From an uncultured Mucispirillum sp. (lineage in GTDB: Bacteria > Chrysiogenota > Deferribacteres > Deferribacterales > Mucispirillaceae), in contig CAMWVK010000133.1 of the NCBI GenBank assembly GCA_947177675.1, positions 1-5,458 on the forward strand: a stretch of 5,458 bases of DNA, written 5' to 3'. The stretch's first letter is position 1. The number at the start of each line of letters is the position of its first letter. The translations under genes and the position numbers were made by a program. This document shows, piece after piece, positions 3,297 to 5,186 of this stretch. The notes beneath the pieces were generated by a model. That model was given only the letters and a program-made list of their open reading frames with translations. It was not told where the DNA came from and did no database searches.

Positions 3297-3324
3297 AGAT
3301 TATTCGCTATGCTCATAATTGACA
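3297..3324 (+). repeat. Partial extra copy of the inverted-repeat arm
   Basis: AGATTATTCGCTATGCTCA at 3297-3315 is identical over 19 bases to 3164-3182, the right arm of the inverted repeat. After it the match decays (TAATTGACA against GAATGACA). No partner arm was found next to it. Confidence 0.8.
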
Positions 3325-3401
3325 GTGTGAAGTTTGAAAGATTAGAATAATATTCTACTACTGTCCTGTCTCTCTGAGGGAGTGAAATGACCGAAGAGTC
3401 T

Positions 3402-3439
3402 AAATCCTCGTGTCGATGGTTCGATTCCGTCTCTGGGCA
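3402..3439 (+). pseudogene. 3' fragment of tRNA-Phe, probable att site scar
   Basis: The sequence matches the 3' half of bacterial tRNA-Phe from about position 36 (anticodon) to the discriminator A73. It includes AAATCCTCGTGTC, the T-arm stem GATGG/CCGTC (3415-3419 with 3427-3431) around the loop TTCGATT, and the acceptor 3' strand TCTGGGC plus A. No 5' partner GCCCAGA and no D-arm precede it, so it cannot fold as a tRNA. CCA is not encoded (C then TTC follows). The match begins at the anticodon loop, a common crossover point for tyrosine recombinases, which supports an attachment site. The intact host tRNA-Phe gene must lie elsewhere. Confidence 0.85.
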
Positions 3440-3449
3440 CTTCTTTTAT

Positions 3450-3482
3450 ACCTTATTAATAAAGTTTTTATTAATACAAGGT
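3450..3482. repeat. Long AT-rich inverted repeat beside the tRNA fragment
   Basis: The left arm ACCTTATTAATAAA (3450-3463) pairs with 3467-3482, with a two-base bulge (AC at 3476-3477) and a GTT loop. It could be the old tRNA-Phe terminator or a recombinase arm site; the sequence does not decide. There is no T-run after the right arm. Confidence 0.6.
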
Positions 3483-3556
3483 TAATAACTAGAAACAGAT
3501 ACTATATATTTTTCTCAATAATTATATTTGTTCTCCAGTTTCTAGTTGCATTTTTT

Positions 3557-3580
3557 ACCGCCTATTATTTAATAGGCGGT
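3557..3580. repeat. 10-bp perfect dyad, possible operator, upstream of the initiator-like gene
   Basis: ACCGCCTATT (3557-3566) and AATAGGCGGT (3571-3580) are exactly complementary with a 4-base centre ATTT. It is GC-rich against its surroundings. No T-run follows on either strand, so it is not a standard terminator. It ends 12 bases before a perfect TATAAT (3592-3597), which places it over the -35 zone and suggests an operator, perhaps for autoregulation by the downstream protein. GGCGGTGC recurs at 3616-3623, over the ribosome binding site. Confidence 0.5.
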
Positions 3581-3591
3581 GCATTTCAAAC

Positions 3592-3597
3592 TATAAT
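3592..3597 (+). promoter_or_regulatory. Candidate -10 element
   Basis: A perfect TATAAT lies 30 bases before the GTG start at 3627. No good -35 hexamer is seen at 16-18 bases upstream (TTAATA is the best), so the promoter is tentative. Confidence 0.3.
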
Positions 3598-3615
3598 TTC
3601 TTGTTTTTCTTTCGT

Positions 3616-3622
3616 GGCGGTG
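3616..3622 (+). promoter_or_regulatory. Ribosome binding site of the initiator-sigma gene
   Basis: GGCGGTG matches the GGAGGTG consensus with one mismatch and ends 4 bases before the GTG at 3627. The in-frame stop at 3594-3596 limits the start to this neighbourhood, and the next in-frame ATG would remove 157 residues. GTG is therefore the best start. Confidence 0.55.
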
Positions 3623-3626
3623 CTTT

Positions 3627-5186
3627 GTGATAAGCACTGAAATAAGAGAAAAGCAAATTCATTTTCACAGTCAAGATTTATATAATTCTGTAAAAATACC
3701 AGTGCGGGATTATTTGCTGGAATTAACGCAGGATTTAGAGCTTGCAATCCTGCTTAATCAAATAATTTTTTCTAAAAAAGATAAACTTACTTTAAATGAT
3801 ATTAAAAAGCTGACTTTAAATGAAAAGACAAAACAGACTATAAGAGCTAAGCTGGAACAGCTTATTGAACTTGGTCTAATTCGCAAATATAAAGGCAATA
3901 GTTTAATATACAACCAAGATTTATATGAACCGACTGATAAAGTAATTTCTGATAACCAGGATATATTAGCACTAATAGAAGGAATTGATTTAAAGTATGA
4001 TTTTCATTACCTTACAGCTGCTTTATTAAACAAATTTAGAACATATGCACTATCAGGTATCAATGAGATAAGAATATCTGCCAGCAAATTAAAATCAATG
4101 CTGGGCGTGAATAACAGTGAAAGTTCTATTCGTTCTATCTTAAAGCAGCTTATAGCTGATGATTACATTGCAGCTGAACTTGTTTATGGTGTCTATAATT
4201 ATAAAATCAATGTATCTAAAATCACAAATAATTACAGTGCTGATGATATAAATAAATTTACTGCTGAACTATTTAGCATATATCAAGAATATTTAAAGCA
4301 GGTAAATATTTCTTTTTCTAAAAGTGAGCTTAAAAGTTATAAAATGACTATTAAAAGAATGCTTAATGATGGTTATAATCCATTAATTTTAAAGCATATT
4401 TTTTCTTTTATCACATTAAACTATTTTGATTTTAAAGAGTTTACAACACCAGCAAAAATAAAAAAATCATATGATAAATTATATAATCTTTCAAAAGCAT
4501 TTTCTAAAAGAAAGGCAAAAAGATTTATATATAAGTTAAAAAATAATTTATTAAGCATGAATGAAACTGATAAAGATAAATCTAATCAAGATAAAGTAGT
4601 CATATCTGATATAGAAATATGGACAAAAGCACAAAGTTATATAGATAATTTAAAAGGTGCATTGCAAAAATGGTATTACTCTTCCCTTGCTGGTGTTACA
4701 GATATTGATTTTGATGATTTCTATCAGGAAGCATTGAAAGCAGCTTATGAGTATAAGAAAAAACATCCAGAATTTGAATTTAAGGCAAATAATATAAAAT
4801 TTTTAACAAAAGATTATATGTTTGATAAAAGAGCTAAAACTATCTACAATGGCAAAAATTCCATTATTAATTTTGAGTATGAACTTGATGATTTAGATTT
4901 AGATAAATATACTATACAAGAGGCAGAAAAGCACATAGAGATTGATTATGATAAAAATACTGGTATAAATAAATTATTTGATATATTAGATGAAAGAAGC
5001 AGATTTATAATTAAGCACTATATCGGCTATGATGGACATTCTCTTACTTTTAAAGAAATAGGCAGTATACTTAATCTTTCGGAATCTTATACAGCAAGAA
5101 TTTATAAAAAAGCTATTCTTTTATTAAAGGAATGTTTTCCACCCGATAAAGAGCAGAAGATAAGGCAGTTAATTTTTAATACTTAA
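3627..5186 (+). CDS. Replication initiator-like protein fused to a sigma-70-like module
   Basis: This is a 519-residue cytoplasmic-looking protein that I cannot place in a named family. Residues 20-100 look like a winged-helix domain of the phage/plasmid initiator type (KIPVRDYLLEL; then TIRAKLEQLIELGLIRKYKGNSLIY). A second wing-like unit is at about 125-195 (ISASKLKSMLGV; SSIRSILKQLIADDYIAAE). Residues 206-293 resemble the C-terminal helical domain of replisome organisers or DnaB loaders (YQEYLK..., DGYNPLILKHIF, then FTTPAKIKKSYDKLYN). After a Lys-rich linker (about 294-325), residues 328-408 resemble sigma region 2 (DFDDFYQEALKAAYEY, later DKRAK). Residues 447-503 resemble sigma region 4 (LDERSRFIIKHYIG, then LTFKEIGSILNLSESYTARIYKKAILLLK). 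It begins with GTG, 187 bases after the tRNA-Phe fragment, which suggests an accessory element. Alternatives: a phage transcription regulator, or a plasmid Rep with an unrelated helical tail. The domain calls are pattern-based inference. Confidence 0.7.
   Translation: MISTEIREKQIHFHSQDLYNSVKIPVRDYLLELTQDLELAILLNQIIFSKKDKLTLNDIKKLTLNEKTKQTIRAKLEQLIELGLIRKYKGNSLIYNQDLYEPTDKVISDNQDILALIEGIDLKYDFHYLTAALLNKFRTYALSGINEIRISASKLKSMLGVNNSESSIRSILKQLIADDYIAAELVYGVYNYKINVSKITNNYSADDINKFTAELFSIYQEYLKQVNISFSKSELKSYKMTIKRMLNDGYNPLILKHIFSFITLNYFDFKEFTTPAKIKKSYDKLYNLSKAFSKRKAKRFIYKLKNNLLSMNETDKDKSNQDKVVISDIEIWTKAQSYIDNLKGALQKWYYSSLAGVTDIDFDDFYQEALKAAYEYKKKHPEFEFKANNIKFLTKDYMFDKRAKTIYNGKNSIINFEYELDDLDLDKYTIQEAEKHIEIDYDKNTGINKLFDILDERSRFIIKHYIGYDGHSLTFKEIGSILNLSESYTARIYKKAILLLKECFPPDKEQKIRQLIFNT

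Follow-up and report, generated by a model that had tools for sequence, protein, structure and literature searches.

The 519-residue protein encoded towards the end of the window (the whole 5,458-nucleotide stretch of DNA analysed, from an uncultured Mucispirillum species) is probably the master activator that switches on transcription in a family of mobile elements integrated at tRNAs, reading a box followed by TATATA. The protein is likely to be the element's own switch, because the transfer genes are preceded by a common signal that, across the Mucispirillum genomes searched, is found only inside elements. Of the two roles offered in a first-pass annotation, the wider evidence favours the second, that of a dedicated sigma factor for the element's genes.

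The single continuous frame read by that annotation is present and intact on the forward strand, and its GTG start aligns with the ATG start position of homologues. AlphaFold2 models of the protein (block means of pLDDT of 74–96 for the N-terminal domains) agree with the two winged-helix-like segments and one helical segment that had been proposed, followed by the sigma-70-like half (Table 1).

Table 1 Features of the fusion gene and of the sequence preceding it, in window coordinates.
Feature	Position	Strand	Remarks
3' half of tRNA-Phe	3402–3440	+	att-side remnant marking the element's end
Leader hairpin 1 (predicted)	3450–3482	+	from folding
Leader hairpin 2 (predicted)	3486–3548	+	followed by a T run at 3551–3556; terminator-like
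Palindrome ACCGCCTATT-ATTT-AATAGGCGGT	3557–3580	+	likely operator, centred on the -35-like TTAATA (3569–3574)
TATAAT, -10-like box of the gene's likely promoter	3592–3597	+	from sequence
Gene	3627–5186	+	519-residue fusion: predicted tandem winged helices, helical bundle, sigma-70-like half
First winged helix (predicted), residues 23–102	3693–3932	+	AlphaFold2 models
Second winged helix (predicted), residues 113–194	3963–4208	+	AlphaFold2 models
Helical bundle (predicted), residues 205–305	4239–4541	+	AlphaFold2 models
Sigma region 2-like helices, residues 328–406	4608–4844	+	D-F-Y-Q-E motif at 364–368
Sigma region 4, residues 444–503	4956–5135	+	Pfam, TIGR02937, model

The C-terminal half contains a genuine sigma-70 region 4. 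Pfam Sigma70_r4 (PF04545) matches residues 452–501 (E = 9e-7; 28.8 bits against a gathering score of 24.1), at nearly the position of the helix-turn-helix anticipated at about residues 447–503, and region 4 is matched in 11 of 15 family members at E ≤ 1. The predicted model superposes on region 4 of sigma-A at 1.0 Å over 60 residues, and comparison of a family profile with the sigma factors of related genomes gives this region a probability of 95.6 (E = 1.3e-8), 20 column-shuffled controls all scoring at most 0.3. Through region 4, the family profile detects sigma-like frames across the phylum, with some match in 47 of 50 genomes.

Region 2 is more weakly indicated. Pfam region 2 has no match in the window protein or in the 15 members scanned, so its assignment rests on the span of TIGR02937, a motif and the predicted fold. 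The TIGR02937 sigma-70 model covers residues 344–503 (E = 3.8e-7; its score of 29.9 bits falls short of the model's cut-off, 42.9); at E ≤ 0.01 it is found in 13 of 15 members, the best E being 9.5e-13. The segment DFDDFYQEALKAAYEY, in which a region 2 had been suspected, begins at residue 361; within its D-x-x-Q-E-like motif (D-F-Y-Q-E), D364 is invariant in all 15 members and the Q and E vary. Residues 322–517 of the model align to sigma-A with a large global r.m.s.d., and region 2 matches weakly in the profile comparison (probability 1.9).

A search of 5.8 billion proteins returned 223 relatives among 7,998 scored candidates. The 120 listed of these are 489–556 residues long with a query cover of at least 95%, and all retain the sigma-like half; an assembly error joining two separate genes, as the first-pass annotation had envisaged, is ruled out by these full-length homologues. 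One homologue among the matches listed carries an organism name, Mucispirillum schaedleri. In six-frame searches the window protein matched 16 of 59 genomes (G020, G027, G033 and G054 by region 4 alone), and its N-terminal half 12 of 384, all from the window's order, Deferribacterales, and spread over two families and four genera; in the genomes searched, the fusion protein is confined to this order. A profile of four divergent members found two proteins, the member from another family (f4) itself and a 319-residue sigma-like protein. No relatives were found in the plasmids, phages and viral contigs searched (one stretch of a viral contig fitted the pattern and none was confirmed), and a viral or plasmid origin was ruled out on these grounds. 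A host core gene was likewise ruled out, as four of ten genomes of the genus have no match (G002, G007, G008 and G009, of which G008 is only 75% complete) and the copies lie at tRNAs.

Copies of the gene evidently recombine with one another. Residues 1–410 of protein P0027 are identical to P0032 at 342 of 409 positions and to P0004 at 222 of 381, whereas residues 411–534 match P0004 at 120 of 124 and P0032 at 72 of 124, a sharp shift of nearest relative at residue 411 that points to paralogues swapping C-terminal halves. Two f4 elements carry a second fusion gene downstream of the first. Its product is a second sigma-like protein, in which the sigma part precedes a ParB-like domain, encoded at L045 2–1124 (reverse strand; PHROG sigma E = 4.8e-9, ParB-like E = 1e-6) and L047 5725–6930 (forward strand; PHROG sigma weak, E = 0.0036; ParB-like E = 2.1e-5). 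One and the same element can thus hold the sigma-like module twice, each time with another partner.

The fusion recurs at tRNA genes, which bears out the idea of looking for it beside att sites. Flanking sequence is available for 19 copies, and in 17 of these the gene lies directly 3' of a same-strand tRNA, tmRNA or half-tRNA: an intact tRNA or tmRNA in 12 (Arg, Leu, Asn, Phe, tmRNA), and a half-tRNA in five (the window, L036, L038, L039 and, by eye, L047). The two exceptions, the second copy of L043 and that of L046, begin 5' of a tRNA-Leu that points the other way. Of the 19, L036 (at tRNA-Asn) has a broken gene, L049 a truncated one and L006 one interrupted by the end of its contig; short remnants, and copies at contig edges that lack flank, are not in the count.

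Three gene copies of the closed genome G006 are in elements flanked on both sides by tRNA-derived repeats. These are a 6.5-kb element at tRNA-Phe (43/43-bp repeats), a 5.3-kb element at tRNA-Asn (43/43; gene broken) and a 35.2-kb element at tRNA-Arg (41/41), the far end of which is an intact tRNA-Arg; a fourth such element, in G003, measures 9.7 kb (45/45). The tRNA-Phe half in the window is the same one that forms the 43-bp repeat of the G006 tRNA-Phe element. The window reaches a contig end, so that only one element end is visible there. To the right of the tRNA-Phe element, and just past it, is a short remnant of a fourth G006 copy (L037 15993–16283), suggesting an earlier tandem insertion. 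Immediately before the tRNA-Phe half of the window is a dispersed repeat (3297–3401), one genomic copy of which has a match stopping exactly at that half; the chromosome junction is therefore either a secondary insertion or an assembly join, an ambiguity in a genome of 329 contigs that leaves the gene unaffected. A local repeat pair occupies 1297–1359 and 1402–1464 of the window.

The 35-kb element of G006 is an integrative conjugative element, with an integrase, att repeats, a relaxase, a coupling protein and type IV secretion genes. Pfam identifies VirB11, VirB4, VirB9, VirB10, ArdC-like, ParA, ParB and integrase proteins in it, and a relaxase and TraG/VirD4 in the closely related copy of G001, for which G006 has matching frames. 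Further frames we take, by eye, to encode TraF, topoisomerase III, VirB5, a 193-residue helix-turn-helix protein and a NikA-like protein. The fusion gene stands at one end of this element and the integrase at the opposite end. Tra, Trb and VirB genes adjoining integrases and tRNA genes are described in the M. schaedleri genome paper, in the accessible text of which the terms 'sigma factor' and 'integrative' do not appear.

Small tRNA-integrated elements of 5–10 kb (L037 9103–15679, L036 14381–19760 and L041 9546–19326) carry, besides the fusion gene (which L036 has in broken form), a tyrosine integrase and a NikA-like protein; the NikA-like protein of the G003 element is identified by Pfam, and a ParA-like gene lies near the fusion gene in the tRNA-Phe and G003 elements. 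In these three small elements we recognised neither a relaxase nor secretion genes, and they are likely to be satellites of the 35-kb element. An inverted repeat lies between the box described below and the NikA-like gene (L037 13380–13740; GTGAATGTG..CACATTCAC are the L037 arms), with equivalents at matching places in L036, L041 and L040, and is a possible origin of transfer.

The leader between tRNA and gene contains three predicted hairpins, the third being the palindrome, and the interval 3442–3640 folds better than each of 200 shuffled sequences (z-score of -6.07). TATAAT begins 11 nt past the palindrome in the window; a TATAAT-like hexamer follows it by 10–11 nt in 14 of 15 leaders, the fifteenth having AACAAT. 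In four leaders, all from a branch whose protein is about 31% identical, the palindrome is a different one, TTCGCTCC...GGAGCGAA, with almost unchanged spacing. The exact window palindrome occurs ten times in six of the ten genomes searched, each time ahead of a copy of the fusion gene, and the sole other match in the ten has three mismatches (G012); the broken G006 copy is preceded by a shorter variant with both arms changed. The palindrome as the operator of a regulon was rejected, its exact matches in the ten genomes standing only before the fusion gene. A short hairpin, GTGCTT..AAGCAC (3618–3639), is predicted with the start codon in its loop; it is also present in some other leaders and may control translation.

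A different signal, resembling a promoter in its placement, marks the operons of the elements. In the first lineage the motif GTTCAGTTnnnAnCAGTATA, mostly followed by TA, lies upstream of the NikA-like or relaxase gene, the gene for the 193-residue protein with ParA, the VirB11 operons, a VirB5-like frame, a topoisomerase-like frame and a ParA/ParB/integrase operon. With at most one mismatch, it has 16 sites among ten genomes of the genus, all 16 of them in elements: six in G006 (2.35 Mb), all of them within its three elements, four in G001 and three each in G005 and G003. Nine sites are located between att repeats (G006, G003) and seven on contigs recognised through element genes, such as C24 of G001 with VirB11, ParA, ParB and integrase. 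The reversed pattern gave one match overall and a shuffled 20-kb locus none. At the same threshold there are no sites in the gene-less genomes G002, G007, G008 and G009, nor in the gene-bearing genomes G000 (that of the window) and G004, whose contigs end near the gene. Some sites in the large element fit the box only at two mismatches, and a box-like 20-mer near the contig end of the window (5432; four mismatches) is excluded from the count.

In a second lineage, the protein is 25% identical and the box is a different one, CTCGAACAAGnnnnTGATATATA. It has 15 exact sites, four each in G010, G012 and G013 and three in G014; a further 11 rows appear at two to three mismatches, and as the reversed control gave 18 matches at up to three mismatches, only the exact sites are counted. 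Gene and boxes share one contig in G012 and in G010 (where the gene is cut by the contig end). G013 has one box on the contig of the gene and three on another (C28), which, like the box-bearing contig C148 of G014, lacks an intact gene. Boxes are known for these two lineages only, and nothing convincing was seen by eye in the other g2 branch (A-type) or in f4 elements.

In both lineages the box is positioned about ten bases upstream of TATATA, which in the cases read precedes the start codon by 18–54 nt; ahead of the NikA-like gene in small elements the interval is longer, about 150 nt. In the first lineage, the best-matching hexamers at the -35 position upstream of TATATA agree at 3.22 of 6 bases, against 3.05 (s.d. 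0.19) in shuffled sequences; this comparison used 18 of 25 places, near-duplicates and one at a locus edge having been dropped. Four second-lineage sites match at 2–3 of 6 by plain count; no -35 stands out in either lineage. The boxes are singletons before separate operons, a pattern as for a transcription factor.

We propose that the host polymerase transcribes the fusion gene from an ordinary promoter, consisting of TATAAT and a -35 covered by the palindrome. The winged helices would then read the box just upstream of TATATA, and the sigma half would contact polymerase and the -10, so recruiting RNA polymerase; the protein would activate, rather than repress, the transfer, partition and integrase operons. 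If TATATA is the -10, the box spans roughly -28 to -20 and is closer than the normal region 4 contact would allow, which is why we conjecture that it is read by the winged helices and not by region 4. In the small elements, the element's own copy would turn on a helper conjugative element having the same box. Activation would account for the co-variation of box and protein between lineages, the missing -35, the absence of boxes where the gene is absent and the keeping of the gene by small elements in which no secretion system is recognised. We hold it possible, if somewhat doubtful, that a conjugative element supplies the whole of its promoter recognition in one polypeptide, a sigma factor with a winged-helix pair reading a -10-adjacent box that replaces the -35 and diverges between lineages together with the protein, and that minute satellites survive with not much besides this switch, a NikA-like protein, ParA and an integrase.

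Three other readings bear on this assignment. Were the protein to repress the element operons globally, in the manner of KorA/KorB, the sigma-like half would merely be an extra part binding DNA or polymerase. One box type does serve many operons and stands immediately before TATATA, where a promoter could be blocked; however, the -35 is no better than in shuffled sequence, so the promoters would be weak unaided, the boxes are non-palindromic, unlike the gene's likely own operator, and the sigma-like half is kept in every listed homologue. We regard repression as unlikely. Slightly less likely again is a role in line with the annotation's 'replication initiator-like' N-terminus, in which the protein initiates replication of the excised element and its sigma-like half brings RNA polymerase for transcription or priming at the origin. 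The sigma-70-like part of that joint identity holds, and the initiator part is weakly indicated. The order of two winged helices and a helical region resembles that of one predicted phage 'replication initiator protein' (Foldseek E = 2.5e-6; TM-score of 0.47 by target, r.m.s.d. of 10.2), PHROG 270 gives short matches in five of 15 members at E ≤ 0.05 (best E = 3.3e-5, and E = 1 for the window protein itself), and ParA-like genes lie nearby in the tRNA-Phe and G003 elements. Against this, the solved structures among the matches listed are mostly generic winged helices of the MarR, Fur and CRP types (the absence of Rep_3/RepE and DnaA from that list being no argument against those folds), and no Pfam initiator family appears among the best 25 of 30 matches for 15 family members. 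Foldseek matches to RPC62 of RNA polymerase III were taken as generic tandem winged helices. No iteron array adjoins the gene among 20 of the 29 repeat families listed for the window (an origin may lie elsewhere in the element), the palindrome is single before each copy that has one, and the boxes stand singly ahead of operons.

It is more improbable still that the boxes serve another regulator and the fusion protein acts otherwise, for example in antitermination as GafZ does, or in relaxosome work. The first lineage's 193-residue protein, a helix-turn-helix protein by eye, is a candidate for that regulator, and the tie between fusion protein and box comes solely from co-occurrence. GafZ, a homologue of the C-terminal end of GafA, does act in antitermination (PMC11150451, accessible part). 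The 193-residue protein, however, has no BLASTP match in the second lineage, although BLASTP can miss small diverged proteins, and only the fusion protein and the integrase are common to the 6.5-kb tRNA-Phe element and the second-lineage element (BLASTP, E ≤ 1e-3). The large element and the second-lineage element also have TraF-, VirB4- and ArdC-like proteins in common (BLASTP).

Should the activator reading be correct, a sigma factor and operator reader in one protein would be a new mode of building a regulon, with an unusual promoter geometry. It would also open a way to study gene flow in a bacterium common in the mouse gut and explain how tiny elements could command a helper; the boxes of two lineages make the idea testable. 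The decision of a conjugative element to exit has been worked out in few models and, to our knowledge, in none from this phylum. We found no description of such a fusion in a conjugative element in the literature, surveyed by titles and openings of abstracts and mostly outside subscription journals.

Among mobilizable elements, SGI1 brings along, in SgaDC, the same kind of activator as its helper, an IncC plasmid; SgaDC is FlhDC-like and not sigma-like. ECF-type sigma factors resemble the fusion protein in the order of region 2 (putative in the fusion protein), linker and region 4, the model showing no evident region 3; they differ from it in that the fusion protein has a 310-residue, likely DNA-binding front half, and its likely promoter spacing is unlike the -35/-10 spacing usual for sigma factors. 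By design, the nearest system appears to be GafA of Rhodobacter capsulatus, which, with GafY/GafZ of Caulobacter, directly activates gene transfer agents and, according to the accessible text, has a DnaA-like N-terminus and a weak likeness to sigma, serves a phage-like particle and activates the gene-transfer operons and its own gene (PMC6363796, PMC9638019, PMC11150451). Compared by description, the two share a DNA-binding N-terminus (predicted in the fusion protein) and a sigma-like C-terminus, whereas the fusion protein is modelled with two winged helices, has a strong region 4 and would serve conjugative-element cargo. FseA, a DUF6499–DUF2285 protein that binds an inverted repeat beside a -35, is likewise, by description, an element-encoded activator with a conserved box before element genes; its helix-turn-helix resembles several families including sigma factors, and the accessible part of its report describes no sigma domain (PMC10359603). 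On the best reading, the fusion protein would be an element-encoded, sigma-like activator of transfer that operates in the way of GafA or FseA and not as an initiator of replication.
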